Below, piece by piece: positions 8,108 to 40,264 of a stretch of DNA of 64,000 nt. The notes beneath the pieces are model-generated. The model was given only the letters and a program-made list of their open reading frames with translations, made no database searches and was not told the DNA's origin. Position numbers and translations under genes: made by a program. The DNA is taken from NCBI RefSeq assembly GCF_000165425.1, contig NW_001799619.1, forward strand, positions 675,370 through 739,369, read 5' to 3'. The stretch is from Paramecium tetraurelia. Its lineage: Eukaryota > Ciliophora > Oligohymenophorea > Peniculida > Parameciidae. Position 1 is the first letter of the stretch; every line of letters begins with the position of its first letter.

Positions 8108-9678
8108 ATGAATATTTATACATTGAAATTTGAGGAAAGCACCTTAGAGAATTCTTATCAATTACATAAATTCAATATATGGCAATGCCCCATTCTTATC
8201 TACACATATGTGTTATCAATAATAATTGTTGGCAGCAAACTAATATATTAATTAGTGATTCATGACTATATGTATTTGATACATAAAGTAGTAATACTCT
8301 TTATAGTAATACTGCTATGCATATTTTTTAAACATTTCAAGAAATTTCCAAATTTAACCTTGCTGTTAATCAACTTTTTACTTTTATCACTTGAAACCGA
8401 GACAAATTAGAATAATACTTATTATCAAGGATACTTGTTTGGATGTAATTAGATGCTTGCACATGCTATTCTATTCTTAGGTTCAGATTTTTTAGTTGGT
8501 TTGGGTGCGAATGTAGTTTTGGCAGTAGCAAGGGCAGTAATCACATATGTTAACGAAGATTATTTAACTTTTCAATAGTATCTCTACACTATTTTGATTA
8601 CTTTTGGGGTTTCTGGGTTATTATATTAATCAGAATTGTCATAAAGAAGGTCCTATTTATATTAAACGAAGGACACAACTTGGGGTATAAATTTAATAAA
8701 TCATTATTAGAAAAAATATTGCCATTTGTTATATGCAAGCCTTTTCTGATTTTTAAATTTGACAAGGAAGCTTTTTCCTTTTAATAAATTGCAATTAATA
8801 AGTCTTTGACAGATAGTTAAGAGATGTGTTTTGATTCAGTAGGTGATTTTCTAAAGGAATGCAAATATGATAAAATGACTCTTCAAAAATACTTATTTCA
8901 AAAGTATGAGAAGTTCAACACCTTGATTAATAAGATAGAATGTGAGAAATTAGAGATCTATTATAAAAAAAGTAGGATGAAAATAAAATTATTGATCTAT
9001 TGTGCTGATACGATTAGATTTATGATTGTTATTGAGGCTGTGGATTAAGCCTTTATAGATTTAAAATATAGATACTAGAACCACTTAAAGGAAATCACTT
9101 AAAAGTATAATAATCAACTGAAGAAACTTGCCAAATTATTACATAAAAAACTAAAGAAATGTAAAATGTAAATGATGAGTGAAGTGTCGATTTCTGTACT
9201 TGAATTCAGAATTTTGCAATCATTATAACTTACAAAACTAACCAGAATCAATATGTCCTAGCTATTTCAAAAATTTTATCAAATCTTTCACTCTAATTAT
9301 AAATATAAAATATATTTCATTTCAAAATAGGATTATGTGATTCATACCTATAAACCAGAACTATATTACTTTATCATATCAATTATTAGATAATCAAATC
9401 GAACTTCAGAAATATCCTTCATTATTGATTAAAATTAGGAAGCATAAGCTCCTTAACTATCGCTTTAAGGTATTGAGAAGCTGCCCGTGGATCATTAATT
9501 TTTATATTGTTAACGAATACTTTTTGAAAAGCATATCTAAGTGTTAAATTGTAATTTAGATTATTTATTTATAGCTCATTTTTGGATCTTCAAAGAAGTG
9601 CATTCCTCGTTTAATTAACTCTATACTTTTGATAATATTTCAAATGATCAATATAATCTGTTGAATTAGTAATTCTGA
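8108..9678 (+). CDS. Six-helix membrane protein with degenerate histidine-kinase-like tail (paralogue of 11141-12658)
   Basis: Predicted 514 aa with one 26-nt intron (8685-8710). Residues about 30-200 contain about six hydrophobic helices. The rest is cytosolic-looking: KPFLIFKFD, a segment ending FLKECKYDKMTLQKYLFQK, then a long helical stretch, then HTYKPELYYFIISIIRQS, which resembles the N-box position of a histidine-kinase ATPase domain, and later EKHIQVLNCNLDYL. It shares order and short motifs with the gene at 11141 (KPFLxFxFD, FLKEAKYGKRTLQ), so the two are paralogues. The link to histidine kinases is an inference from pattern only; no intact H-box or glycine-rich ATP lid is seen. Confidence 0.65.
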
Positions 9679-18979: not shown

Positions 18980-19133
18980 TATTATAAATTATATAATATC
19001 TCTATTAATGATTATTTTATCATAATGTTAAGGCTAATCTATTAATCGGATTTAAATGGTTGAAAAATGCAATTACTGATAGTATAAGAAAAATAAATAA
19101 AGAAAAAAAAACTAATCGTTTTTATATAATTTG

Positions 19134-20688
19134 ATGAATAAACTTATTTTGCTGTGTATACTCACAATAGGTCTAGTTTAAGCAGACCTTCCTGTTCATT
19201 GTATGAAACATCAGATCACAGGAAAGTGGAAGATGGAGGTGAGCTAAACAAAACTTAAAGGAATGGGTGCTGTTCCATGTGGACATCATGTTCCAGATTC
19301 ATAGTAATCCTCCTATTAAGCTGGTTTTGATGACTTTAAAGCAGTTGATACCTTCGAAGTCAATTTGAGCAATGACTACAGTGTTCAGGATAAGGAGAGA
19401 AAGACAAGTGGATAATGGACAATGGTTTATGATGAAGGATTTGAAGTAGAACACAATGGAGTCAAATATTTTGCATTCTCAAAGTATGCTCCAAATGGAT
19501 CCGATTACAAATCATATTGTGGTGAGACTTTGATTGGTTGGTATAATAATTTAAAGACTGGAGAGAAAGGTTGTTATAGAGCAAAGAAGACTGATGGAGA
19601 CAACGAAGCCACAGATTCCTATCAACTCATAAGTGTGGTTCAGCCAGAATTCATTCAAAAAAGTACAAGACATGGAGACAGGGTTAAATTACATAAGAAT
19701 TTCGACAATCACAAGGAAGCAGTTGATAAGTTGAATAGTATTCCAAAAACATGGAAGGCTAAGGCATATGACCATTTTGAAGGGATGTCTATGATGGAAT
19801 TAAATAAGATGGCAGGTAGAAGAAAGCACTTCTAGGGTAAAACAATAAGGAAGGCATCCTTTACACAAATAAAAAGTGGTGATGTCTCTGGATTACCAAA
19901 ATAATTCAGTTTGGAATAATACCTTGATCCTCCTAGACAATAAAAGTAATGTGGATCTTGCTATGCTATATCAACAATGGAAATGCTATCAGCTAGATTG
20001 AAGATGAAAGGTGAGTAGGTGACACTATCTCCTCAATACTCAGTGGATTGTAATTACTTCAATTAAGGTTGTGATGGTGGTTATCCATTCTTGGTTGAGA
20101 AATTCGCATCTGAATAATATTTGGTGACAGAACAGTAATATCCATATAAAGGTGATGTGGGCACATGTAAAAAGATTGATTTTTCATAATCATCAAAGGT
20201 TTATGGAGCAAAGAATTATAAATATATTGGAGGAGGTTATGGATTAAGTAATGAGAGAGATATTATGATGGAATTGTATACAAATGGTCCAGTAATTATG
20301 AACTTCGAGCCTTCATATGATTTCATGTATTATGAAAGTGGAATTTATCATTCAGTTGCTGAACATGATTGGTCTACTTAAGAACGTCCAGAATGGGTAT
20401 GAAATTGTTAATAACATAAGGAAAAAGTCGATCATTCTGTTTTGTGTTATGGTTGGGGCGAAGAAGATGGAGTTAAATTCTGGCTATTATAGAATAGTTG
20501 GGGCAGTCAATGGGGAGAGAATGGAAGTTTCAGGTAACCAATATCGAGATATCATTAATAGAATGAAAAGAGGAGTTGATGAATCAGCTATTGAGAGTAT
20601 GGCAGAAGCAGCAGATCCAGTGATATATTCAAAATCTAATAGCGAATTTATTGAAATGAAAAAGGAATAAAATTTAAGAAAGTAATGA
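19134..20688 (+). CDS. Cathepsin C (dipeptidyl peptidase I) cysteine protease
   Basis: Predicted 500 aa with introns at 20397-20420 and 20534-20561. A signal peptide (MNKLILLCILTIGLVQA) leads into a cathepsin C exclusion domain (DLPVHCMKHQITGKW near the start). The papain-type catalytic domain shows the active-site Cys in QCGSCYA, CDGGYPF, the His in VDHSVLCYGWG and the Asn in NSWGSQWGENG. It ends with RGVDESAIESMAEAADP, also typical of cathepsin C. It would act in lysosome-like or food-vacuole compartments, removing N-terminal dipeptides. Both introns are needed to join the active-site His and the C-terminal motif. Confidence 0.95.
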
Positions 20689-20756: not shown

Positions 20757-21919
20757 TCAATGAGTTATTAATAGTTAATTATACTCACTAGCCAATTTGT
20801 CACAATCGTACGTAAAATTAGAGTAATTCTAGAACTTACCAAAATCATTAACTGGTGTATCCTTGACACTGCATTTTCTTATCAGATTTTAATCAAAAAA
20901 TTTGAATGGCCTTTCGTTTTGCATTTCAACAGGAGGTGCAATCTCTTTTCTTCCAATTTTTTTGAAGTCTACATCCTTGAAAAAAGGGTGCTCATAGATT
21001 TCTTGAGCATCTCTCTTTAGTCCCAATCGTTCTCGTGGATTTCTCTTTAATAGTTTCTTTAACAAATCCGTAGCTTCCTCAGATAAATACTATGGAATCT
21101 CAATATCCTTTTCTGTTGCATATTCTATGATCTGTTTTCTGGATAACCTATAAAAAGGTGGCTTGCCTGTCAACAAATCATACAATAAGGCTCCATAAGT
21201 CCACCAATCACAACATTTTGAATACACTTGTCCTATAATTACTTCTGGTGCTATATATTCAATAGTTCCACAGACAGTTTTAGCAGACATATCATTTCCA
21301 TAACATATTTTAGATAATCCAAAATCGCATAATTTAATATGTCCCTCTGAATCTAATAATATGTTTTCTGGTTTCAAATCTCTATATATGATATTTTGTT
21401 TATGTAAGTAATCTAATCCTATTAAAATTTCAGCAGCATAAAACTTCGTCTTTTTCTCTGTCATTCTTCCTTATAATTTAAGGTGGTAAAATAGCTCACC
21501 TCCTGGAACAAATTCCATTATCAAATACAATTTGGTTTAACTCTAAAAAGCATAATGTAATTTAGTAATGAAATTGTGATTTGTTATTTCTAAAACCTTC
21601 CTCTCTGTTTGCACATGTTTCTTCTATGTTAGTGTCTTAACTGATTTCTTGATTAACACTTTCATTGCATATAATTTCAACGAGACTGTGTGTTAAACTA
21701 ACATTACTTTTCCATAACTACCCTTTCCCAAATTCTTAAATTAACCATAGTTAATACTCTTAGCATTATGAAATGACTTAATGAAATCTTTTCACCATCC
21801 TCATCCTGTTAAGGAAATTACGAAATCACTTCTTCGTTATCCTCCACTAAATCCTTTTGATCTGTGGGATCAGCACTAATTACTGTTTGTGGACCCTCTT
21901 TAAAACAAACCAATCCCAT
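20757..21919 (-). CDS. AGC-family Ser/Thr kinase (S6K/AKT/SGK-like)
   Basis: Predicted 379 aa with one 23-nt intron (21735-21757). Kinase motifs: ISLSHFIMLRNLGKGSYGKV (glycine loop), YAMKVLIKKS (ATP lysine), FVPGGELFYHL, IIYRDLKPENILLD (AGC-type YRDLKPEN), CDFGLSK and the activation segment AKTVCGTIEYIAPEV with a Thr in the PDK1 site. The C-terminal tail ends with a hydrophobic motif resembling FxxF/Y-T-Y (NYSNFTYDCD). The N-terminus MGLVCFKEG is a possible myristoylation/palmitoylation signal. It converges on cathepsin C with 68 nt between the stops. Confidence 0.93.
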
Positions 21920-22959: not shown

Positions 22960-23546
22960 TAATATAAGATATATATAATTAATGATGATTAGTTAATATA
23001 TGGCTAAATTAATGATACTATCGAAATTATAGTTGGTAAAAACAAAGCATATACAATTTTATAGTGATAGAATGTCAATCAAAAAAATTAATTTGGTTAT
23101 TATTATAACTTATAAAGGGAATGCATCTGCCTATTTTAGAAGTTCTTTGTCTGTACTTAAACGCTGATTTTATACTATGATCGTCGCATATAAATTTAGA
23201 TAATTTTAGAATTAAAATTGATAGAATGATAGATAATCAGGATATATGAACTGCAGTTAAAAATAAAATACTAATTTTGGGAAGATACAAAATCGAAATG
23301 ACCAACATAGATTATGTCCAAAAACTGATCCAAAGGAATCGAAAATTACAGACTGAAATATTTTTGATTATCATGTAGACTTTTTGCTCTTTAATAATTA
23401 TATAAGGTGAGGAGAGAGACATTTAAATACAATATACATTATTGATAAGTCACTTTTGTTACACTTATACTAATTCAGATGATTAAGAGATTTTAATTAA
23501 TTGGATCAGGAAAATTATATTAAAATAAATAATTTACACACATTAA
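22960..23546. other. 587-bp intergenic stretch, no gene recognised
   Basis: AT-rich with scattered TGA in every frame and no RNA or repeat signature. The frame of the downstream beta'-COP gene stays open for about 240 nt upstream of its ATG, but the residues there do not resemble that family. Confidence 0.5.
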
Positions 23547-25764
23547 ATGTCTTTGAATTTTGAGATAAAGAAGAAGCATGTGGCTCGCTCAGAAAGAGTT
23601 AAGAGTGTAGAGTTGCATTCTGAATATACATGGGTATTATCAGGATTATATAGCGGAGTTATAACAATTCAAGATTATTCAAATTAGGTATATGAATTAT
23701 TTAATTAGACTATCGTAAAATAAATAGATCAAAAGTAAAATGAAGTTAATAGATAGGCATTTGAAGCTCATACTGATTATATTAGATGTGTGATTGTGCA
23801 TCCATCTTAGCCATATTTAATAACTAGTTCAGATGATACGACAATAAAATTATGGGACATTGATAATAATTTTACATTGCTAAGAACATTTGAGGATCAT
23901 GTGAATTATGTGATGATGGTTGCATATAATCCAAGAGATCCTAACACATTTGCAAGTGCAAGTATGGATAACACAGTAAAGGTGTGGACAATCAGAATAG
24001 CAAACCTAATTTCACATCTGATATCAGATGGAGATGATAGATCCATTAAGATATGGGATTGCCAAACCAAATAATGCATACACACCTTAGAAGCACATCA
24101 ATAAAACATATCATCAGCTAAATTCCACACAGATTTACCACTCATCATTTCATAGCTGCTGAAGACGGAGTCATTAGATTCTGGCATTCAAATACGAACA
24201 AATTAGAAACATCACTCAATTATAATATGGAAAGAGTTTGGAGTTCAGATATAGGAAAAGATAATACATTAGCCTTTTCTTACGATGAAGGAACATTAAC
24301 CAATTGTATCTATGCAATAAGGTAAAGTTGTCGATGGGAAGAACTTTCAGTTCTTTACAATCAATCTCAAAGCCATTAATAATACATCAAATGATGGTTA
24401 GATTATATAGACAAATTCAAAAGAACTGGGAATTAGTGACATCTATCCCTGCGGTGTCAGACACAGTCCAAATGGTCATTTATTTGCAATTTTTAGTGAC
24501 TCTGAATACACGATATATAGTTCATAGAACTTTAAGAATTCAGGTTTCGGATCTGGTACAGACTTAATTTGGTCTTCAAATGGGGATTATGCTGTTAGGA
24601 AATATTTTCTATAAAACTATTTAAGAACAACACTTTGAGTTTTGAAATGAAAACAGAGTAAATAATTGACCAATTATTTGCTGGACCTGTGCTGTGTGCT
24701 AAGTTTTCTGATTTTATCATGTTTTACGATTGGGAAACCGGCAAATTGATCAGAAGAATTGATTTCTTTCCTAATAAAGTAATTTTGAATGATACAAATA
24801 CAATTGTGGCATTGGCAACAAATGATGAAGTGTATTTCTTATAATATGATCCAGAGCAATTACCAATCTTTTACAGTAAGAGGAAAATTCTGATGGATTT
24901 GAGGATGCCTTCTAACCTTTATGTGACACAACTGAATCTATCAACTCTGGCTATTTCATCCAAGATGTCTTCTATTATACTACTATGAATGGCAAAATAG
25001 CATACTCTGTTAATGGAAAGATCTTTATTGTCGATTAGGATAAAAAGTATTTCATAATTCGTTACATCCAACAATAAAATAAACTCTATCTCATCGATAA
25101 AAAATATAATATTATTAGTTATGAAGTTAATAGCAATGTCGTTGAATTTCAAACTCGGATTCTTAAAAAATAATGTACAAAGGCTGAAGAAACCCTTTAA
25201 ACAATTCCAATCCAATACTATGATAAATTATCTAAATTTTAGACACTCTTAATCTCAAAGAATGGGCATATAAATTAGTCTAGGACGAAGACCATAAATT
25301 TGAGCTTGCTCTTTAACTTGCATTTGTAGATGATGCTTTCCTAATTGCTTAAAAAAGCTAAGACACACTCAAATTAAGACAAGTTGGAGATCTTTCTTTA
25401 AAATAAGGAAAAATTAAAATAGCTTCTTAAGCCTTGCAATAGGCAGATGATTTTGGAGGACTCCTATAAATTTATTCCTCTTTGGGATTGAAAAATTAAT
25501 TATTGCGATTGGGGGATAAAGCTTTCCAATAAACAAAAATGAATATTGCATTCTCTGCCTATTTCTTATGTGCCAATCTTGATAAATGTTTTGAAGTTCT
25601 TATCAAAAGTAATAGACTCCCTGAAGCTGATCAATTTAAATAAGTATTCATTTTCTTTACTATCATAGTTTTAAGAATTCTTGAATTAAGATCTATTTCC
25701 ATAATTATAAAATAACCCTAATTTGGATCTTTCACAAATCACTTATGAATCTGGTGAGTATTGA
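23547..25764 (+). pseudogene. Coatomer beta'-subunit (COPB2-like) with missing segments and frame breaks
   Basis: The start (MSLNFEIKKKHVARSERVKS), FEAHTDYIRC, ITSSDDTTIKLWD, TLEAHQQNIS, MERVW, MFYDWETGKLIRRI and FELALQL are diagnostic of beta'-COP, the WD40 subunit of COPI vesicle coats. Two introns fit (23688-23708 and about 25651-25675). However, about 35 residues of the second WD blade are missing near 23709-23765 and part of a later blade near 23985-24030. The frame must shift near 24300, 24597, 24870 and 25237, where a single missing base restores the family sequence; the 24300 break probably also reflects lost residues. Either this is a decaying duplicate of an essential gene or a poorly sequenced copy. 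Downstream of each break the protein again reads well. Confidence 0.8.
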
Positions 25765-26122
25765 ATAATTTATATCAAAGTGTTTATTAACATGATATAT
25801 CATTGATCTATAATTATAAATCAAATAAAATTGTAATTTTATAACTCTTAATCTTATTACTAAAATAGAAATTTTTATAATTTCATTTATTGTAGCAATT
25901 TCTAAAGTGATAATAGTAATTGGAAAATGCTTGCCATACTAGATAATTAATATGATAATGAATAAAACATGAATAAAGCATAATTAGATATTATTAATAC
26001 ACAGAATATTATTATTAAAAGTTATAATAATTTCTTTAACAATATTTTTCAAATTAAGGATTGAATAGAATTCATTAATAGATATACTTAAAAATTTTAA
26101 ATTATATTGCTAATTATCTTAA
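25765..26122. other. 358-bp AT-rich spacer between convergent genes
   Basis: No open frame of note, no repeat and no RNA gene seen. Confidence 0.5.
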
Positions 26123-27339
26123 TCAATTCTTTAATTATTCTAATTCTTTTTCTACCGAATTTTTGTATTATGGATTTATAGCAATACATTTCTTAAAGCA
26201 CTCTATCGCTTCCTGTACCTGTCCTTTGGCTTTTAAACAATATCCTATTACATTATAGGCATTTTTAAATACCTTTAGAATATTGGATCAATGCATTATT
26301 TGGATCGATTTGCTCTCCTTAATTAAGAGTAATCAGAGATTCATCATATCTCTTTAAGCATCTTAATGAGTCACCTAGCATATATAATTTATGGATCATA
26401 CCTTTTCCGAATAGAGTTATTGCATTCTTGGGATTAATTATTAAAGCCCTGTCAAAAAATATCAAAGAGTCAGCATATCTTTACATTTTCCTTAAAGTTT
26501 CGCCTTTGTAACTTAAGCCAACAAAATTCTTTTCATCCAACGAAAGGGTCTTATCAAAATAATCCAAGGCTTCTTAATATTTGCCTTGGAGTCTTAGAGA
26601 ATCTGCTTTATGGCAAAGAGCATCTACGAAGGTTGGATTATCTTAAAGAATTTTATCAAAAATTTCATTGGCTTAATCATAAACTCCCTACATCTTTAAG
26701 CACATGCCTAACATAATCATTACTATTTTTACCTATTCTCCATTTACTATATAAATTTGTCGGATCAAGATATATGCAGTAATTAAACTATTGTCTTGCT
26801 TGTTCAAACTTGCCCTATACATAAAATTAATTGGCTTATTTTAAGCACTCTTAAAATTCTTATTGTTATCCATCAGTCAAGTTTGATTGAGAAAATTCAA
26901 GGGCTGTTTTTAAATCATTTAATATTTCTTTGGCTTTTTTTAATTCAGTTGATGCTTTTATTGAAATAGAGGTACTTTCTTTAGAAGGTTTTGAGTAAAT
27001 TAACATTAATTTAACTTTTGTAATATCATCATGATTGGAAATTTTTTAGATGCCTAAAATATTTTGGATAATTCTAGTTGTTTCCATTTTTATTAAATTT
27101 ATCATTTGTATAACTTCTTCACAAATAGAGTAGTTGTGTTTCATGGTTTATATTTATTCTTCTAGTTTTTGTCTTACATTGTCTATTGTTTATAAATCTT
27201 CATTATGATTTGCATGAGCTGGAAAACAACTAATACACAAACCAGAAGCTGCTTAACATTCTTTATTTAAACAAATAGCGATAAGTGGTTTCTTTTAATG
27301 TTGTATTTCTTTGCAGTACAAAGCATTCTCTATAATCAT
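26123..27339 (-). CDS. B-box-like zinc finger plus TPR repeat protein
   Basis: Predicted 387 aa with introns 26708-26732 and 26245-26272. The N-terminus has a Cys/His pattern like a B-box (CKEIQHQ, ICLNKECQ, GLCISCFPAHANH), followed by a coiled coil to about residue 100. The rest is a run of TPR units: NQFYVQGKFEQARQQFNYCI, ALCHKADSLRLQGKYQEALD, FVGLSYKGETLRKMQ, and the last GYCLKAKGQVQEAIECFKKC ending AINPQY. Such proteins act as scaffolds; a B-box with TPRs is common in ciliates. Partners unknown. Both introns are needed to keep the TPR register. Confidence 0.82.
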
Positions 27340-27501
27340 ATTGAATGTACTTATTTTATATAATTTATTATCAAAAACTCAATATGAATTATAAGTTTCC
27401 TTTAGATATTCACATTTAATACATGATGAGTATTATTATATCAGAAAAATTATTATCATAACAAGATTTTCTAATATATAAAAAAAAACTATAAATATAG
27501 A

Positions 27502-27726
27502 ATGTAGAATAGCACCTAACAAACTCCAATTTTAGCATAAATCGGAATGTCTTGAAAAAATAAACCCAATCAAAGCTCATAATTAAGCGAAAAAACTACA
27601 AAAGAAGAATAATTTAGTGTATTTTCAGGAATAACAACAAAATTAAGAAGTAAAGATTAAGAAATCATGATAACTTACAAGCTAATTGTCATTTAGATTT
27701 CTTATATTTAAGATTTGAACTGCTGA
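27502..27726 (+). CDS. Possible short Gln/Ser-rich protein
   Basis: MQNSTQQTPILAQ can be joined across a 27-nt GTC...AAG intron (27552-27578) to a 65-aa frame (SEKTTKEEQFSVFSGITTKL) ending at TGA 27724-27726. The intron is atypical (GTC start), so this is weak. No family. Confidence 0.25.
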
Positions 27727-27752
27727 TAATTCTATTAATATGATTAGGTTAA

Positions 27753-28043
27753 ATGGCATTCTTGAATGAATAGGGAGGAAATCAATTTAAGCAAATTTAA
27801 TCTAATGTTTAACATTCATATCATCGCTAATAGGGCTTCAAATACAGATAAACTCTAGACTTCAAGGAACAACACAATAATAAAAACAAATTCCATTTAC
27901 CTATCCAAAATTTTCTATACAGGTTTAAAGAGAAAGTCAATACGGAATTTGAAACTCCTTAGTATTTGGAATGTCATGATCAATAATACTTTATTGATAA
28001 ATTCTTTTTGTTACCTATTATAAATTTTTATATTGTGTTTTGA
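27753..28043 (+). CDS. Possible short Gln/Asn-rich protein
   Basis: A 96-aa frame begins MAFLNEQGGNQFKQIQ and ends in a hydrophobic stretch (KFFLLPIINFYIVF) just before TGA. The composition resembles Paramecium coding DNA. It may be an upstream exon of the next gene, but I found no convincing splice join. Confidence 0.3.
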
Positions 28044-28054
28044 ACTTCTATACA

Positions 28055-28780
28055 ATGTCAATCAAACATTAATAAATTGATGAACCTCTTTACATATTAA
28101 AGGGATTTAAAATACCACTGCTGAATACATATTTTCAAGAACCTTATCTATCTCCTATAAATGTGAAGTAATAACTGAGTTCCAGATCTAATAATCAGCC
28201 ATTCTTTGAATCCTCAACCACTAAAACCAATGCAACAAGCAGAGAATTTTATCGTTTCGAGCCTTTGAAAGTAGATAAAACACAATAGAACAAGCAACTA
28301 TAAGAAAAATCACCTTCTCCAAATAAGCTGAAATTTCTTGAGGATAACAAATTAAAAGGATTATTAAATATCGTTTCAGATAGAAATAAACAAATTCATC
28401 TAAAACAATATGATTTTCCTGTAGGAGGCTCAACTAATAGTAATACAAAAAAAATAAAGTTTAACTTTAAGAAAATAAATATTAAAATGCCATAAAAAAT
28501 ACAATTTTCAAAGGAAGATTTAGAAAACAATAAGAAATTTTTAATAAACACACTTCGAAAAAGTTCAGTTGTTTAGAATTAAGAAGACATTTAAAGACCT
28601 GTTAGATCGAAATCAGATTTCGAAAAGGTAAGATCTAAATCGAATTTAAAGTAAGCTAGTCCTTACAAAGACAGATTAATTGAGGAGTAATATAAGAAGA
28701 AAACGGTCAGATTTAATGAGTTGGTAGAAATAAAAATGTTTGAAAGAATAAAATCTCATTTAATGAAATAGTTAATATGA
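28055..28780 (+). CDS. Hydrophilic protein with a PP1-docking-like motif
   Basis: Intronless, 241 aa. Mostly disordered, rich in Lys, Asn, Ser and Gln (SSRSNNQPFFESSTTK). Near the C-terminus it carries KKKTVRFNELVEI, a strong match to the RVxF docking motif (K-V-R-F with basic residues before and acidic after) used by protein phosphatase 1 regulators. The Ser-rich stretch RPVRSKSDFEKVRSKSNLK just before it looks phosphorylatable. I infer a PP1-interacting regulator. No other domain is visible. Confidence 0.6.
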
Positions 28781-28835
28781 ATTATTTTTTATGACTAAAG
28801 ATATAAATTAATTTGCTAAAACCTTTATTTATTCA

Positions 28836-29300
28836 ATGAATCCTTCCCTTCATTCCTTAGAATAAGTAAAACATTAGACATTAAACATCTTTATGTAAAG
28901 GGTGTTTCTCTTCACAAAATCTTCATATTAACAATTAAATTATATCGGGCAACAACAAAACCTTTGCAAGTAATAATACTAACACAATCGAAAAAACCAA
29001 AATGACCCTTATTCATCAGAAATGTTAACAAACTTACATGTCATCAATTTCAAAAATATCTTGACCTAGAGAATCATACAGACTCAAATGAATTTTAAAG
29101 AAAATTTTCTTAATGAGGTGAGAAACTCAGTCTAAGGTCAATATATCACCTCATATTTTAATTAGAATGTCTTATTATTTATAAAAATATTTGTAAGAGA
29201 TCTAGTTATGAGATCTAAAGAATGTTAAAAAAAAAACTAGAGGCCATTCTAAAGTATGGGGTGTAGAATATAGATAAGAAGTTGGAATATGACTTTATGA
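28836..29300 (+). CDS. Possible hypothetical protein
   Basis: A 154-codon frame starts MNPSLHSLEQ and ends at TGA 29298-29300, with Gln/Asn-rich composition. A 35-nt intron after codon 10 would give a much shorter product instead. No family; it may be chance in AT-rich DNA. Confidence 0.3.
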
Positions 29301-29515
29301 TTTTTGAAATTATAATGAATACCAAAGATTTTAATGGTTATTAATCCATAATTTATTTGTTTACTTTTAATAAAAATAATTTAGCATTTATTGTAATTTT
29401 TATATTCAAACTTGTAAAGCTGTATTATATGATATATTTAATAACATTATTGTTTGAATGAATGATAGAGAATTTTAATTACATAATATAATAAAATAAA
29501 ATAAACTTAAATACC

Positions 29516-30151
29516 ATGTTTTTATAAGGGTCAAAAATCAAAACAATTGAGGCCACTGTTAATTAATAAATAAAGTTTTCAACCAGATAATTAAGCTAAG
29601 AGCTCAAATCCTCTCATTCACTGCATCGTCGCTATTCTACTGTTGCCGTAATTCATCAAGATGCTTATAAGATTGAGGATAAATATTCAAAATAGTTAAA
29701 TCAATCATTGCACACTAAATATTATAATATGCATCAGCTATTCAAAAAGAAACAATATATTCCTGCTAATTTTAAGTCAAACAATAAACCATTTGAACAT
29801 GTAGTAACAAACTAATTCTCAAAAACATCATCCTAGTTAGTTCAAAAGAAAAAGAAGTTCAATGCAAAAGAGTGGCATAAAGTTAACTATGACAGGTTTA
29901 GATTCTTAAGTAGGTAAGCAAGCATCGAAAAATTAGTAACTAATCGATAACAAAGTATTTAGCCGTGTTTGTAAATTTAATAGGCTAATAGACAACAGAG
30001 AAGCGTTTCTTAAATGAATAATTATAGAACTGAATCAATTAGTAGTTTAAACAATGAAAGGTGTAAGTGTCAAAGAAGTAATTCTTTATAAAAAGAAAAT
30101 CTTGTTATATTTTTAATTGAAGAAAATTAACAGAACTAAAAACATGACTGA
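29516..30151 (+). CDS. Hypothetical basic Gln/Asn/Ser-rich protein
   Basis: Intronless, 211 aa, starting MFLQGSKIKTIEATVN. It is basic (VQKKKKFNAKEWHKVNYDRF) and low in structure, with a Gln-rich patch (QQANRQQRSVSQ). No domain recognised. Its codon pattern (many TAA and TAG for Gln, no TGA) matches nearby genes. Confidence 0.55.
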
Positions 30152-30853
30152 ATTGCATATATTGTATGTAAATAATTTTCACTACATTTTATATTTATTT
30201 GTAATTAAAATGAGTTAATTATCTACTATATAAAAAAATTTTTCTTAAAAAATGCTTTGTATAATTCATATAATGCATACTTGAAAAAATCAAAAAAGAA
30301 GATATTGATTTTAATTCAATCTATATTCAGAATTCAAGGTTCAATGAATTCTTAATTTTGAAATACAGTTAAAAATTTTTATAGCTGTAAGTTGTTTAAA
30401 AATATAAATGTAGGTTTATCAGAATAGATTGAGTTGAATTTCTCATCGGTAGAACATTATAATAGAGGGAGTTTCAGATCTTTAAGATAACGGCTAATTC
30501 ATTTTTAGGAAGGAAGAAGATCAAAACTTATCTAATTGATTTACTACTTAAAAATTTACAATTGAAATATTTGAGAGAATGTATATTAATCATTATAAAA
30601 ATCATATGCTTAAATGACATCAAAGTTTGGTTTTAAACAAATGTATAAAACTAAATTACATTTTGCTGAAATCCTATAGAAATGCAATATATATATTATT
30701 AGACTTTGTAACATTAATCAAATTTTATAGCTAATCATAATTTTGTTGTAAACTCATTATTAAAGCAAAAAGTGAATAAAAATAGATTACTTAGATCAAA
30801 TTATAAATATTGATTATAATAATCATTTTAAAGGTATAACGCTTCTGAATTCA
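30152..30853. other. 702-bp AT-rich spacer, nothing recognised
   Basis: No long frame on either strand, no RNA gene, no repeat seen. It separates two convergent genes, which is long for this genome. Confidence 0.5.
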
Positions 30854-33361
30854 TCAATACTGATTATAATCATAATAGAAATGAATCTTTAACAATAAGT
30901 GGCTTGATTAATGTCCTGATAAATAATATAATTTGAGGTCTCTCTCATTCTCCATTTCATCATCAATAAAACATTTGGCACATTCATAACAAATATCAAC
31001 ATGTTGGCCATCAAATTTGCCTGGTCTACAATTTAAGCAAATATATCTAGGTAATGGGTCAAAATCTTTTTCTTCTCCTTTTTCTCTTTAACATGGATGA
31101 CAATCTATGGGATGATACTTATTCAGTTATTGATTCTTTTTAGGGAATAAGTTGTGTCCAAATTTATATGAGCTTAATCTATTCATTTCTTCGTCAGTTG
31201 CACACGATGGTACAAATACTAAATTACTTAGAATCTTGAATTCTTATAGTTCTATTTTATCATCATCTTATTATCCACACTCAATGCAATAATGTCTGCA
31301 TAACCATGGTGAATAGAATTATCCTTAATTAATGATAGATTTATTACACAGATTACATTACTCTCCTTTCCTGATTTCGAAGTCTATTATTAAGATAATG
31401 AATACATTGATATAGATCTGGGAATTACAATTCTTTTGCAACTAGTTACCCTGATTACGCTTCTAAATTTAAATTTATGAGCTCATCTTCTTAATCTTTA
31501 TACCTTTATAAAGCATAGTATTCATGTTCTTAAGGTGTTAAAGTAATCAAGGGTACTATAGCAATTCCGTCTTATTTAACTAATTTATTATCTGCTTAAT
31601 AAACAGCAAAGCCATAATTAACAATGTCAAATTGTCCAAATTGCATTAATGAGTTTCGGCAATCATAGATATCAAATTAAATTATTTTATTTTGCAGGAA
31701 GTCCTCAAATCCCATTTCAATGACATTCTTAGCTCTTTCTAATATTTAAGGAATATGATCAAGGCATAAAATTTTGTATGTTCCTTTTGGTTTTAGTTTC
31801 TCCAACAATTTGAGTATGGCTGTTGCTGTAAATGCACTTCCACAACCAATATCCAATATTTATAATTCTTTATTTAAGTCTTTCTTCACATATTTATAAA
31901 TAGTCTCTAAGATTTTGATCTAAACATCAAAACTTTCAATGAAACTTCCCTCTGCAAAATCATATCTCTCATATTCATTTTAAAATGAAGGGACATTATC
32001 CACGTAATCTTGTATCTCTAATTCTAATAGTACTTATGCAATTTCAGGATGCATCTCCTATCCCCTTTGATATAATTTCTAAATTAACTTAGCTTAATTG
32101 CTGTTCATTAAAAACAAATATGGCTCAAAGAAATCCAATTTTTCATAATCCAGAGCCTGAGTTGGATTCTTGATCATTGGTAATGGTTTTTACTGTGTTT
32201 ATTGTTATTGTTCAACCAACATAGATATTCCCTTAATGATTTTAATTGATTATTTTTATCCTTTGACTGTTCTAATGTTTGTAGTGTGCTCCATGGGTTT
32301 TCTTAAATATTTAGTATCTGTCATGCCATATTATAATACTTGAACATGTTCTTCTCCATCAAAATTCTAATAATAATCATGAAGAAATTGAATCAGCTCT
32401 TCATTTAATTTTGGATCTGTAACTTCCTTATGTAATCCTAGCTTTGTTTTCACTTCATTCATCATAATAATGTCATTGATTCTATTGGCTTTGGTTATCG
32501 TCAATGATTTAGTGACTGAAATTATAATTGAAATAGTTGATGATGCTAAGGAAAGCATAAGAATTTCTATTGACTTTTTGTTTGGATTCAGAAATAAGTA
32601 AATGACCTATAATAAAAATTATGGCAAATCTTCTGCAAATGTTCTAAATGTAGCTGCATAAACTCTATTTGGAATTCCTTTCATCCATAAAAAGTTGGTT
32701 GTATTTTATATTGTCCATTTTTCTAATAATGAACCCACTAAATGAATTTCAACAAAAGAGCAATAATTGCATAAATAGTCAATATAATTTTCATCTCCAT
32801 CTTATCTCGATAATAACAAACTTAAGATATGAAACATAGTTGTAGACAATGTTAAAGCCATAATAGCTATTGCACAATATCCTATGGCAGTGTTATCCCC
32901 ACATGTCATCACAGTAGTAATAAAACAAATATCAGAATAAACATCAAACTTAGCCATTTAACTTAAAAACAAATCCTTGCTCTTAAAAAATCAAATATGA
33001 AATAATTACAAAAAACATTTGCTCTCTTCCAATAAGGACCATTTGAAAACTCAGCATGAGTAATTTCGTGATCTATGCAAGTCTTTGCCAATCTGATTTC
33101 TAATAAACAAACTAGAAATGCATAACCGCAATATATAAAATGTCCTGTCCATTAATGTCCTGAGCACGCAAGTACAAAATACACGGGTACGAATACGCAA
33201 ATGAAATAAAATGCTAAAAAGTTAATCCAAAATAATATATTTAATGGATACTTACTATTTTCAAGGTGTTTTTTGAGATCATCCTTCTTGTTGTTATATT
33301 CATAATCAGCAGTCTTAATACCTAAAAGATGAGTGATAAAGGATCCATAATTACTTTGCAA
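30854..33361 (-). CDS. Fusion: multi-pass membrane segment, isoaspartyl-methyltransferase-like domain, zinc-finger tail
   Basis: One frame of about 816 aa runs from near 33361 to TGA 30854-30856 with two introns (32982-33016 and 31384-31405). Residues 1 to about 270 contain several hydrophobic helices (ILFWINFLAFYFICVFVPVY, IGYCAIAIMALTLSTTMFHI) around FLSQMAKFDVYSDICFITTV. Near residue 490 comes LDIGCGSAFTATAIL, an AdoMet-binding motif I, then LCLDHIPQILERA and VKQDGIAIVPLI, in the order seen in protein-L-isoaspartate methyltransferases (protein repair). From about 650 two Cys-rich zinc motifs follow: CNLCNKSI...CRHYCIECG, and YICLNCRPG...DICYECAKC, like a ZZ finger. The 5' end is uncertain because no in-frame ATG fits without an extra splice. 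Confidence 0.72.
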
Positions 33362-33486
33362 AAATACACAATAACAGCATAAGAGGTATTTTTAAACAAA
33401 ATAAATAGAACAAAAACACTATTTTAAACATTCAACAAAATTGGCTTAAATGTTTTAATACAAATCCACACACATTTTAACATAGA

Positions 33487-36052
33487 TCATGAAAAAAGCA
33501 CACTAAAATTCATAATATAATATTTTACAAAGCATGTTTTAATTTCATCTACTTATCCTTCATCTTGTCTTTCGTACAATTATAATAGTGATTAATCCCA
33601 ATAGTAGTTCTAATTGGAATTTACAATGTATAAGTAAAAATTCATTGGAATTTCCTCTTAAACTTGTTATTCAAAAGCTTCCACATCAGAATTTTTAACT
33701 AACTTTTATTCTTCAGATAATTGCAAAGTGAATTTTTCTATAATTTGTTTTGTAAATTATTTCATTGTTGATTCAGACAATTCTTCACTAAATTCAATTA
33801 TTAATGTTTAGGTATTCTTCATAATTAGATTCTTATTTTTAATCAACATTTCTAATTGATTTCTAGTTTATTCTTTAAAGAGTAAATTGCCAGAAATATC
33901 CAGCACCCTCAAATCTTCATTATTTTCAAGTGTCCTCAATAATTTACAACCTTCCTCATCAGTAAATTGATTATTTCTTAAATTGACAATTGGAATCTTT
34001 TAAAAAAGTAATCTATAAAATGAGTAATCATCTTCAGGAATCAATTATTATTCATCATCATTAGCCATTTCTAGATTTTGATATCTCATTTTTTATTTCA
34101 TCATAGGTTTCTTAGTCTGATTCCCAAGATAATTACTAGATAAATCTAAATATTTCAATTAAGTCAGACGAGTTATTTTTTTGATATCTTCAAAGGTAAT
34201 TTTGTTATTACTGAGATCTAGGTAACTTAATCTATCGACTTTGTTGATCAAATCAATGATATACTCTTTAAAAGGGAGTTTCACATCAAATAATAATGAG
34301 CAATTTCCCAGAAGTAACATAGTTAAATTTTAGTACTGCAAATTCTATAAAAGTTTAGAAATAACTAAGTATCTATCATCACTTAGTTTCAAATCATTAT
34401 ATTATCTGAGATAGGCATCAGCGAGATCGCTTAGATACAAGAACATTTTATTATCTGTATCTTGGGCAGTATCAAAGAACTACTCTATTTTCATGAATTG
34501 CTTTTTCTTCTTCTACTTTGACTATTTTCTTATTTCCTGTTTTTCACTTTCATTCTTTTTCAAATCTATTTATTATGGGATACCCATTCCAAAAGATTAC
34601 GGCAATAGATTTTGTTTAACACTATTCAATGACCATGCTAATATCTATATTCTTAATTCATATTTCTTCCTTCTGTGTCTCAACCTCTCTTGGAATTCTG
34701 CTTTGTAGAATTCTCGAAACTCACTCATCTTTAGAATTCCATCATATAATGGTTCAAAGTACTATTCTCCATTCAACATTATCTATTGTACAGATTGAGT
34801 TTTCTTGTCAATGCCTGAAAATCCAATGTAAAATGAGGATTAGAAATATTGTTGTAATAAGGGTTTGTAATTGAACATCTCCTAGAGTTTCAACTCAATA
34901 AAATAGAGGAATGGCATTTAAACTAAATGATCTATTTTTTGTGTATCATAAGAGATAATCTATATTAGACCATTCTCTGATATCTATAATAAGTTTGGAA
35001 ATTCCTAATAATGACTTAAGGGATAAATTTATTTAGTTACATCACTCAAATTTTAAAGATATAATCGTTCGTCGTTAATTTGATCAATATCGACAATAAA
35101 TATTTATCCTGTGTTTACAACCACATATAATTTATTCTGAATTGGAAAGAATTTCATATCAAATACCTCTGCACCATCATAAAATTGATACTTCTTAATT
35201 ACCTTCCCTTTTCTATTTAAATCCACTATGCTGATTTTGTATTCCAAACCATTTACCATTCTGCATTAAGCTACTGCCAATAATCGCCCATCATTACTGA
35301 TTGTTAGTTTATTTATTATTTCAAAAGGTTCAATCACATACACTTTTGCTGTCCTTAAATTAGAGTTTATATCTTCCCCTATAAAAGTGTAGACCACCAT
35401 AGAACTATCTCCTAATGAAATTACCAACTGGTTCGTCTCATGACAATATGAACTTGCACTTATACCAACTACAAACTTTTCAGTTATTGTCTCTATATCT
35501 TATTATAACAGTTAATATTTGTTGCTCACTTCTTTTGGCTATTTCTATACTGATTATGTCAACTAATTTATATAAAAACATTTTATGCTGCTCAAATCAA
35601 TTACTATAGCTAAATCGCCATTGGTTAAAAAAATATTCTAAATTTACGTTTCACTAAATTTTATAATCTCTATCTGTTTCAGAATATCGTATTATTTTAT
35701 TGAATTGCATAATTAATACATTTCCAATCTTCCCTTTTGTGTTCCGACTAAAATATAATTGTTATAATATCCTATTGCAACAGCGGTAACAATGCATCCT
35801 TAATTATTCAAATTCGTGTATTAAATTATGTAGTTTCTCGTCACAACATCGACTATCGAAATGCAATTCTAATTACTCTCAATTTAAATAAGTTACATAA
35901 TGTCCTAAAACTAGCAATTCGTTTGAATAAGCTGAGCAATAAATCTGTTTCCGATTGATTTCGTAATCCCTTATGAAAAAAGGCACCTGATTTACAGATT
36001 ATAGATTAGAATCAGGAAATATGATTGAATAAAGTTTTTAATCGTCTTACAT
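33487..36052 (-). CDS. Beta-propeller-like plus leucine-rich-repeat protein
   Basis: Predicted 845 aa with one 28-nt intron (35869-35896). The first about 430 residues alternate short beta strands as in a WD/NHL-type propeller (SIVDVVTRNYIIQ, KISIVDLNRKGKVIKKYQ, QIFIVDIDQINDERLYLQN). The C-terminal third has LRR units: LTMLLLGNCSLLFDV, LSYLDLSNNKITFEDI, LKYLDLSSNYLGNQ, IPIVNLRNNQFTDEEG and LRVLDISGNLLFKE. A basic linker (KKNESEKQEIRKQSKQKKKK) divides the halves. The layout suggests a scaffold, perhaps ciliary or cytoskeletal, but I cannot name it. Confidence 0.72.
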
Positions 36053-36701
36053 TATTAAATTAATTTACTTCAATTATCTCTAAATTTAAATACATCTCTT
36101 TCTTTTCATTCCCAATTAAATATGTCTCATTAATTTTTCTCATTATTATCATTTCTCAGAAATTTATCTGATTAAATTCATGATAATCACATACATTTTC
36201 AAATGAAAAAGAAGACTAATCTAAACTTATTTTGTTTATCTTATATTTAAACCAGAGAATTCTCCCACTAAGAATTATGAAATAAGGTAATTTAGAAGAT
36301 TATACTTTGACTATCAAACTTAATGTATGTTCAAAGAGAAAAATAAAAATATAATTAAAAACAAACTAATTATATAATGATAATTAAATAGAATAGAAAT
36401 ATCTTAAAACCAAGATGAATTAAAAATTACATTAATTTAAATTTCTACTCCTTAACCAATTACTAACTTATAAAATCAAAAATACACAATCTGTTCAGAA
36501 CAATATATATGATGACATAGCTTCATTAATGAATATATCCATAAACATCATGAAAATGAGTAAGTTTACTATTTAGAATAATCTTTGGAGTCTTTAATAT
36601 CAAAAAAATAAATTAATTTAACGATTAGAATATGATTTAAACTAAGGTATATATTTTTATATAAATTAATAACTTTATTAATGCGCAATAAGCATGTTAC
36701 T
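36053..36701. other. 649-bp AT-rich spacer between divergent genes
   Basis: Holds the promoters of the flanking genes. The only ATG-initiated frame of note (36203, 25 codons) is too short to call. Confidence 0.45.
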
Positions 36702-37187
36702 ATGAGAAATTTCGAAAATAAAATAAAGTTATCTTGATGCTTATTTTTAAAGTCAAAAACGACATTCTTCCTATCCTTAATCTAAATCAAAAAAAACACT
36801 AAAGGTTCTATACCTAACAATTTCCAAAAGGGTGAAAATAGAATTGACATCAATAGATTTAATATTAACAAATAAGTATTTTTTGAAGATTCATTTTAAT
36901 TCTTCAGCAAGCCTAATTAAACAAATACTAATTTTTCTCGCCTAATGTTAAGAAATAACTATCATATTTTAAGTGCCAAAAAAAAAAGACCAACTTCTTC
37001 GGAAAAACTCAAAATAACTACACCATTCTATTCTTCTTCCTTTTATCAAAATTTCATAAGCTAAATAATTTTCTAGGTAATAGAAATTAATAAATAAGTT
37101 CGAGTTCCTCTTTTCTTAAAATAAGTCAAAGAAATAGAGAAAAAATAAGTCTGTGATGAAGGAGGACTTTTTGATAATGGGTTTTGA
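36702..37187 (+). CDS. Hypothetical Lys/Ser-rich protein (frame needs one base in an A-run)
   Basis: MRNFENKIN joins over a 25-nt intron (36728-36752) to QKRHSSYPQSKSK. The frame then reads sensibly (NTKGSIPNNFQKGENRIDIN, SAKKKRPTSSEKLKITTP, ending CDEGGLFDNGF) only if the A8 run at 36789-36796 has one more base. So either the run is mis-called or my start is wrong. The later part is well supported; no domain recognised. Confidence 0.45.
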
Positions 37188-38105
37188 GAATAACTAACAA
37201 CTTTAAAGAGTAATTTTCGATATATGAAAACTTATAGTTTCAAAATTCATCTATTTTGTTACATTGTTTATTATTTAATTATATTTAACATACAAATTCT
37301 ATAGTTTCTTAATTATTTTATTCAAAAACAAATAGTTATTATATCTATAAAAGATTGAATAATAAAATGCGGATATGTCTAGAACTTATTTGTTTTCTTT
37401 TGCTTGATTTAATTTAAATTTTTCAATAAATAATAAGATATATTCAAAATATAGTGATCTTGTTATCACAAATATTCACTTTACACTATTCATATTTTAT
37501 ATCAATTTCAAGTAAAGAAATACAACTGCTACAAATACTAATTAACAGGTTAATATACAATCAGTTAAGAGGATATGAAAAATTAACAAAAATAATGAAA
37601 CAATTAATTATTTGATCAACAAAGATTAATTAAAAGAAATATTAATTAATCCTCCTTTGATTTTATTTATATCAAGGATCGAGCTGTTTTACAAATTTCC
37701 TTAATGGGAAAATATTGTGCTCTAACAATTAGATTTGATTAATAAACTGATATTTTAAATTAGAGTGATAGTTTATTATACTAATCAAGTCTATTATTAA
37801 TTATTCTGCAAAATTTATAGCCTTAATATGATAGGGATTGCTTTGAATGTATTTTGCAAATTTCCAAATCAGAGACAATTAATAATTCTAAAAAAAGAGA
37901 GTAGGTACTTCAATTTTTTCGGTTATAATATTTTATCTTGTATTGACAAATTGAATTGTTTAAAACCAAAAATATAATAACTGTGTCAATATTATAATTT
38001 ATCCAAAGGATTAATATTTTGAAATTATATAATATAACAATAAAATAAATGTAGAAAATATAGGATGACTAATAATATATAAAAAATACAAAGAGCTAGT
38101 TAAAG
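37188..38105. other. 918-bp gene-poor, very AT-rich stretch
   Basis: The longest spacer in the window. I found no consistent frame, RNA gene or direct repeat. It lies between two genes on the same strand. Confidence 0.5.
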
Positions 38106-39649
38106 ATGCAAGGAATAACAGACAATTTGGCATCAACAACTCCTGATTTAACAAAATGTGAGTTTGAATTTAATTTTAGTTATCAATCCTGAGGCACTCT
38201 TAAAACCTACGAAAATGCAAATTGAACAATAAAATAAGAAAAGTGATCCAAATGATTCAAAAAATAAGAAAAAGCAAATCTAATAGAGTACTGTTATTAC
38301 AAAAAATGAAATGACTGCTTAAGATTGGATATTGAAGTGTTAGGAATTGTAAGCAATATTGGAAAAAGAAAAGATGAGAACAAATTAATTAGAATTGGAA
38401 CTAAAAAATAGATAGGAAAGATTTGTTAATAGAGAAATTGAGTATAGAAAAACGATAGAAGCATTACAAACTGAATTAAGAGCTAAAACAGCTTTAGATT
38501 AAGGAGATAGAAAAATAATGGAGAATATTTATAAAGATCACAATAAGATTATTGACGGAATCAATAATATTTAATTGAGAACATCTAAAATATTGGTGGA
38601 TTAGGAGAGAGATATTATTAGATTTTTTAATAATAAAATTAATGAGATAAAGAAACAATTTGAAGAGGAAAGAATTAAGAAAGGTAAAAATGATTAGGAG
38701 TATATTGAAAAAGAAAATTAATTGATTAGTGAATTGGAATGGATTAAAAACATAGCTTAAAAAATAGATAATGAAAATCATTCTCTAATGTAAAAGTATA
38801 AAGAATTAAAAATATAGTATTAGACATAAGAAAATGATCGAGAAATGCTTTTAAAAGAGTTAATAATGAAAAAGAAAAAAAATGCCATTCTTAAATCTTA
38901 AATTGAGTAATATGAGAAATTATTGAATGAAGCCTAAAAGGATGAAGTGGAATAAGATGATTAATCCTTTGATCAACCATCCTATCAAGATATTGTAAGA
39001 CCTGGAAGTAAAGCTAAGGTGAGAATTAGGTCTGTGAAGAATTCATCCTAATCTTAAAACAGATAAAACAAGGATGATTCATTATCAAAAAACCAGTCAT
39101 AAATTCAATAACAATAATAACAAGGCTCATAATCAATTCAATAAACCTTGTAAAGGTATGAGAAAACAATAAAATCCTTGCAATCAACATTAAAAAAGGA
39201 ATAAAAGAGAGTGAGAGATTTGAAATAATTATACATTAAGGAAATGCAAAGTAAATCAGAATTGGAAGTTATTCTTAGAAAATGTATTGATGATATCAAG
39301 GAAGAAATCATATAGATCAAAGGAGAAGCAAGAATATTCAATAAGAATAATAAAAGTAAATGTTATAGTAGATAATTTAGATAAATTGGATTAATTGGAG
39401 AAGGAAGATAGAGATAAATTAATTCAAACCTTATTAGATAATGAAAAGATAGTGACTTTAATACATGATTAGATATTTTATGCAAATAAAAAGAAGGTTG
39501 ATGAACTAAATACATCAAAATAATACGAGCCAAAATAACAAAAGTTATTTTAATTTCCTAATAAATAAATACTATAATAATAGTCTTAATAGAGACAATT
39601 AGAGGATGAAGGGTTTGATGATGGAGAGAACCCAGAAGATGAGTTTTGA
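38106..39649 (+). CDS. Long coiled-coil protein, possibly axonemal or basal-body
   Basis: Predicted 498 aa with introns 38158-38179 and 39356-39380. Almost the entire middle (about residues 75-280) is coiled coil with regular heptads (RFVNREIEYRKTIEALQTEL, FFNNKINEIKKQFEEERIKK). A Gln/Ser-rich linker follows, then a second coiled coil and a Gln-rich, acidic tail (QLEDEGFDDGENPEDEF). The order resembles ciliary coiled-coil proteins such as basal-body orientation or CCDC families. That is a comparison by feel, not a proven homology. Confidence 0.7.
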
Positions 39650-39692
39650 TTAGTATATTTTTAAATATTTTTAGTTATATGAAAATATTTAA

Positions 39693-40264
39693 TCATTATA
39701 TATTGATAGGTTTAAACGAATAGTAATCGGTATTTCTTCTTTTAAAATCAACTCTTCTGGTGATTGAAGTATTTCTTTAATTATTATTATTATTCAGTTC
39801 TAGTTTATTCCTAGCATCTTAGGTAGTGTTATTCATTTTTAGAAGTATATCTAGGTGAGTGTTGTTCTAATGAAATGTTTTATTAATTTTCTCTGTGATT
39901 TCCTTTAATTTATTTTCGTAATCATCTGTTAGATTTTAAACAACTGTTGTCTAAGGTATTGAATAACTTCGGTCTTGAATATTGACTGTGTTTTTAGTTT
40001 AATCTTTAAGAATTGGAGTTGGTGGTTTATTTTCTTGATTAATCTTGGAATTATTAAATTATTAGAAAAATTACTCAACTCTTTGTAATTCAATTTTTTT
40101 ATTAAATGGATCAATGATCTCCTTGAACTTTGTCCAATTTTAAAATTGCTTAGTATCTTATTTAGCAATTGGTAATAAAATCTAATTTATAATTTTAAGA
40201 GAATTACTTCTTCAATAAACCTAATGAATCCGCTGCATATTTACGAAATATCATCAGAACCCAT
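39693..40264 (-). CDS. Hypothetical hydrophilic protein
   Basis: Predicted 181 aa with one 26-nt intron (40182-40207). It starts MGSDDISQICSGFIRFIEE and continues WTKFKEIIDPFNKKIE, then is Asn/Thr-rich, with a helical part (LKEITEKINKTFHQNNTHLD) and a basic end (ITRRVDFKRRNTDYYSFKP). Gly2 is a possible myristoylation site but the next residues are not classic. No family. It converges with the coiled-coil gene, 43 nt between the stops. Confidence 0.6.

Follow-up and report, generated by a model that had tools for sequence, protein, structure and literature searches.

Protein-L-isoaspartate O-methyltransferase (PIMT) normally occurs as a small, free-standing enzyme of protein repair, represented in Paramecium tetraurelia by P0001 (231 residues). 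The nearest conceptual precedent for another use of a PIMT-like domain is PCMTD1; both PCMTD1 and PCMTD2 are cullin adaptors of the SOCS-box type. Zinc modules of the ZZ type follow a pattern of three CxxC pairs and a final His pair. Entry 9oma is presented as PCMTD1 in a cullin-5 ligase complex, and the ZZ domain of HERC2 is described as reading a mimetic of an arginine N-terminus (PMC9001736). The gene discussed here is encoded on the minus strand of a 64,000-nt stretch of P. tetraurelia DNA, called the window (contig NW_001799619.1; C200:675370-739369 within the 69-Mb genome), and all position numbers are those of the window. It contains in order WD40, leucine-rich repeats (LRRs), a membrane bundle, a PIMT-like S-adenosylmethionine (AdoMet) methyltransferase domain and a CxxC/ZZ-like tail. 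The favoured explanation, held with evenly balanced confidence, is one gene for a five-part membrane scaffold of ~1,700 residues in which the PIMT-like domain has been repurposed.

Translation uses table 6, where TAA and TAG encode Gln and TGA is the sole stop. Long open frames are common for this reason, and such frames therefore need backing from conservation. Four of the five introns in the window have GTA...TAG ends, the usual form here, and the 35-nt intron has GTT...AAG instead. A frame change is required at the latter, and the second genomic copy (contig C168) aligns across the junction with a gap of two residues. The upstream frame 33487..35898 is joined in frame by removal of the 26-nt intron, and the end of this frame aligns with the N-terminal portion of the C168 membrane frame; judged from this alignment, it is part of the same gene and not a neighbouring gene. 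The probability that the three long exons are TGA-free by chance is ~4e-7, 2e-10 and 1e-11, respectively (rough values, from the mean TGA rate of the other five frames). The five parts are probably transcribed as one unit.

An earlier note, made from the letters of the window, had described a gene for 816 residues at 30854..33361. This covers only half of the gene: at 33361, the proposed start, there is a TTG codon within exon 3 (residue 906), the positions 33354-33322 taken as coding form a 33-nt intron, and the WD40 and LRR half, which extends up to the ATG at 36130, was overlooked. The observation is sound at its core. Translation and Pfam bear out the order of hydrophobic helices, PCMT-type AdoMet methyltransferase and two Cys-rich modules on the minus strand, and the two introns proposed (33016-32982 and 31405-31384) agree with the reading frames. 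The fusion of the parts is supported as real by their order and by the colinear second copy. As to the single continuous frame that the note had read, introns split it in the window, and it exists in the C168 copy from the last LRR to the zinc tail. The interpretation, partly supported, named the correct superfamily; the function that it proposed is wrong or unproven.

A genome search with exon 5 finds one further place, C168:474939-475547. This locus encodes a protein of 1,671 residues. It has four introns of 30, 21, 26 and 26 nt, which all fall within the WD40/LRR part; the first has GTG...TAG ends. The last LRR, the membrane part, the methyltransferase and the zinc tail lie in one exon of 3,117 nt (473910-477026), uninterrupted to the stop. 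Window residues 59-1703 align with C168 residues 35-1662 over 1,795 columns, at 24% identity (E=5.4e-99); identity is 36% in the membrane part and 24% in the methyltransferase. Searches with exon 5, with the C168 frame and with the exon-2 frame find only these two, anciently separated copies in the genome. The C168-frame query also returns a short stretch at C168:14708-14815, where 36 residues match the membrane part of that copy (61%, E=9e-5).

The middle domain of the window copy matches the Pfam family PCMT (PF01135) at 1.1e-10 (42.1 bits, cut-off 20.3). In an AlphaFold 2 (AF2) model built with an alignment, PIMTs rank first among the fold matches listed, and the predicted fold is that of PIMT. 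Profile and modelled fold thus place the domain where the earlier note had put it, in the methyltransferase superfamily, and more exactly in its PIMT branch. Motif I for AdoMet binding (LDxGxGS) is kept as LDIGCGS in the window and LDLGFGSG in C168, and the domain is predicted to bind AdoMet. The elements of isoaspartyl recognition are lost from both copies. The pre-I motif ISAPHMHA, lying in a stretch (T-I-S-A-P-H-M-H) with at least 90% conservation per column across 31 aligned rows, is replaced by IESFDVQI in the window and ISSLKQEI in C168; HVGAA becomes NYGFA and HLGYA; and the post-III motif GVxYVPLTD (GVRYVPLTD) is absent. In its lost pre-I and post-III motifs the window domain differs from the PIMTs of P. 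tetraurelia (P0001), human (1i1n/1kr5) and Drosophila (1r18), and whereas PIMT is free, this domain is embedded in a membrane protein of 1,710 residues. A normal PIMT is encoded on contig C149, where a 137-residue piece is 100% identical to P0001. Another PCMT match, at C44:249018-249329 (L012), contains two TGA codons, and the adjoining genes resemble those by the intact C149 gene; it looks like a duplicate being lost. Further PCMT matches on C51 (L009) and C174 (L010, C174:368500-375500) belong to other methyltransferases, arsenite-methyltransferase-like by motif, and apparently are not relatives of the window gene.

The zinc tail consists of a first knuckle, with four Cys invariant in all six aligned modules, and a ZZ-like part, in which Cys pairs one and three are equally invariant. 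Both methyltransferase proteins have the middle Cys pair and the His pair of this part, which the other four modules have lost in whole or in part. These four come from loci on C12 (L019), C27 (L020), C174 (L021) and C47 (L022), which match the C-terminal 175 residues with E values of 2e-14 to 5e-6. They look like thioredoxin-type proteins, presumably nucleoredoxin-like: Thioredoxin_8 is found by Pfam for C12 and C27 (5e-26 and 4e-24), and C174 and C47 are judged by sequence alone. Their modules share 23-32% identity with the window tail, but the tail is their sole match to the coding frame of the window gene in the stretches compared. Pfam scans of the C12 and C27 proteins assign no zinc family to the shared module. 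The Cys spacing of the window tail fits the ZZ pattern, and when a six-member profile is compared with the PDB, the best four of six rows are ZZ chains of ZZZ3 (2fc7) and HERC2 (6ww3), but only at E 0.0067-0.034. The ZZ label of the earlier note is therefore plausible from these profiles, though below formal thresholds and not matched by Pfam ZZ. Because the tail is shared with thioredoxin-like proteins, it points towards protein quality control.

The N-terminal half is recognized more clearly in the C168 copy, where ANAPC4_WD40 reaches 31.7 bits (cut-off 22.9) and the other propeller models, including EML_2 at 1.6e-9, stay below their own cut-offs; the window copy gives only weak WD40 matches in Pfam. 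LRR matches are present in both copies. On the exon-2 frame LRR_1 scores 21.4 bits, above its cut-off of 20.6; on the complete spliced protein it scores 18.0 bits and falls short of it. LRR_4 has an E value of 8.9e-5, yet is under its own cut-off. In the membrane bundle of each copy, mean hydropathy exceeds 1.4 in six hydrophobic segments and 0.9 in eight. Coordinates of all parts are compiled in Table 1.

Table 1. Positions of the five-part gene, its exons and introns, and its domains in the window
Feature	Positions	Strand	Remarks
Whole gene	30854..36130	-	6 exons, 5 introns; 1710 residues, WD40 - LRR - membrane bundle - PIMT-like - CxxC/ZZ-like; from spliced model and alignment to C168 copy
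Exon 1, residues 1-78	35897..36130	-	Start of beta-propeller; ATG at 36130, alternatives 36109 and 36052
Intron 1, 28 nt	35869..35896	-	GTAACT...ATTAG
Exon 2, residues 79-858	33529..35868	-	WD40-like propeller, LRRs, linker into membrane part; 780 codons without TGA
Intron 2, 26 nt	33503..33528	-	GTAAAA...TTTAG; joins WD40/LRR frame to membrane frame
Exon 3, residues 859-907	33355..33502	-	First membrane helices; contains 33361 (TTG), the start in the earlier note
Intron 3, 33 nt	33322..33354	-	GTAATT...TTTAG
Exon 4, residues 908-1009	33017..33321	-	Membrane helices
Intron 4, 35 nt	32982..33016	-	GTTTTT...TTTAAG; ends off consensus, junction of lowest certainty
Exon 5, residues 1010-1534	31406..32981	-	Remaining membrane bundle, linker, methyltransferase
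Intron 5, 22 nt	31384..31405	-	GTATTC...AATAG
Leucine-rich repeats, residues about 560-760	33823..34425 (approximate)	-	LRR_4 at residues 624-658, weaker LRR matches; bounds inferred from C168 alignment
Membrane bundle, residues 854-1166	32511..33543	-	Hydropathy; C168 alignment
PIMT-like AdoMet methyltransferase domain, residues 1305-1508	31485..32096	-	Pfam match
First zinc knuckle CxxC...CxxC (C1544, C1547, C1567, C1570)	31277..31357	-	Four Cys unchanged across all six aligned modules
ZZ-like module (C1629/C1632, C1650/C1653, C1666/C1669, H1692/H1696)	30899..31102	-	Six-module profile against ZZZ3 and HERC2 ZZ chains

As a scaffold, the protein might work as follows. An even number of helices would leave both ends in the cytosol, and the propeller and LRRs would capture partners, either at an internal membrane or at that of the surface. 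The PIMT-like domain may methylate another protein substrate held there, or act as an AdoMet-bound binding module, in analogy to what the domain of PCMTD1 may do; another substrate or a binding role is proposed because motif I is kept and the isoaspartyl-recognition motifs are lost. The zinc tail would probably read or hold a protein end or a damaged protein, and the five-part protein would thereby be placed among redox and protein-quality-control functions. Several points weigh against this explanation. For the C168 methyltransferase, Pfam lists no PCMT at E <= 1, only general methyltransferase families under their cut-offs, so that AdoMet binding may differ between the copies. The AF2 model is partly circular, as its alignment was one of PIMTs; the model built without alignment is poor (predicted local distance difference test score, pLDDT, 43.6), with the first PIMT at rank 33 and no fold match at E <= 0.001. 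Pfam finds no ZZ and no zinc-finger family in the tail of either copy, where its sole match is an irrelevant HypA (0.036). Finally, the helix number of six to eight is a hydropathy estimate.

Other explanations account for parts of these data. The earlier note saw a membrane-tethered isoaspartyl repair enzyme that methylates aged proteins at the membrane, in line with the PCMT match over its cut-off and with the first rank of PIMTs by modelled fold. However, protein repair is unsupported because the pre-I, HVGAA and post-III elements are replaced or absent in both copies and the genome has a normal PIMT at another locus, and this view is regarded as quite unlikely. Somewhat better placed, but still unlikely, is the view that the PIMT-like domain and the ZZ-like tail together receive substrates for ubiquitin-type degradation at a membrane; it would draw on the precedents of PCMTD1 in a cullin-5 ligase and of ZZ domains reading N-terminal arginine. 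The ZZ match is weak, however, and Pfam scans reveal no SOCS box, RING or HECT family, although short motifs can escape such scans; the ubiquitin-type signalling suggested in the earlier note is likewise without direct evidence. The gene could also be split into two or more separate head-to-tail genes (one for WD40/LRR, one for membrane, methyltransferase and zinc parts), whose long frames would have arisen by chance in a genome that is AT-rich and has a single stop codon. Introns are indeed required to join the frames in the window copy, and one junction has unusual ends. Yet the C168 copy is colinear, with equal order and with its last LRR and all downstream parts in one exon, the long exons are improbably TGA-free, and in a related region on C14 the sole trace found of the gene is its 3' end, which leaves the separate genes a very slight chance.

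A further possibility is that the membrane bundle scrambles lipids as an XK-related protein, under the control of the scaffold and AdoMet-binding domains attached to it. The XK-related profile (PF09815) matches exon 5 at 7.7e-4, and a D-x-P-Q-x-x-L-Q stretch resembles XK proteins. But the match stays below the cut-off (19.0 versus 24.8 bits), and with the membrane part alone it falls to E=0.26 (10.7 bits), where only the second half of the bundle aligns, in shifted register, to the first half of the profile. Moreover, PF09815 is not among the E <= 1 matches of the full spliced window protein or of the C168 copy, and a two-copy profile of the membrane part finds no PDB chain at E <= 10. A genome search with PF09815 is uninformative, as it finds nothing in this genome nor in any of 14 controls. 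XK-related identity is thus a weak hint from one profile, and a scramblase is considered improbable. Even more doubtful is an integral-membrane hub for protein damage, in which a PIMT-derived domain switched from repair to reading would be combined with an XK-like bundle, WD40/LRR scaffolds and a redox-type zinc tail, and would couple protein ageing or AdoMet level to an event at the membrane, for instance lipid scrambling or local protein disposal.

If the five-part scaffold with its repurposed domain is real, the PIMT fold would be reused outside repair, as with PCMTD1, in a protein of which a model ciliate has kept two strongly diverged copies; membrane helices, WD40, LRRs and zinc tail distinguish the window protein from PCMTD1 and PCMTD2. 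Thioredoxin-like and methyltransferase proteins also have in common a zinc module that matches no Pfam zinc-finger family here. The architecture is unusual, and biologically a variant of the PIMT-like kind; the domain order was not found among the listed titles and abstract beginnings (at most 15 per search) of the open-access literature on the protein and its parts. Searches of 5.8 billion proteins yield 7,608 candidates for exon 5 (563 aa) and 522 for the methyltransferase (261 aa), none at E <= 0.001. As candidates are limited to 0.55-1.75 times the query length, a protein of 1,700 residues cannot appear, and these null results are not proof of absence. In the collection, which includes P. 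tetraurelia proteins, no protein of 310-985 residues matching exon 5 was found; this fits a long annotated product, but the annotation may also be short or absent. A scan of viral contigs gives six pattern matches, none confirmed. P. tetraurelia is amenable to gene silencing by feeding, and the function is thus testable.

The history of the locus is reflected in its surroundings. A neighbouring gene at 38065-39444 (+), coiled-coil-like by impression from its sequence, has three further genomic copies, on C14 (86% identity), C13 (50%) and C26 (51%), of use in dating duplications round the five-part gene. The C13 and C26 stretches compared match neither window positions 26000-40000 nor either protein. 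In the C14 region (L032, C14:645600-655500, about 8429-9235), pieces of DNA on both flanks match the window (between 27453 and 30804, and 37990-38654) with 68-91% identity. Of the five-part gene itself only ~110 nt at the 3' end match (window 30803-30913), and the region gives no protein match to the window or C168 copy. On the strength of the 86% identity of the neighbour, C14 is probably the sister region from the last whole-genome duplication. The C14 copy has thus lost the five-part gene almost wholly. Such near-complete loss is consistent with a single gene, and it suggests that a second dose can be done without. Judged by sequence, the window also has frames that look like a papain-type protease (19131-20402, +), an AGC-type kinase (20757-21731, -) and a WD40 coat-like protein (23277-24638, +).
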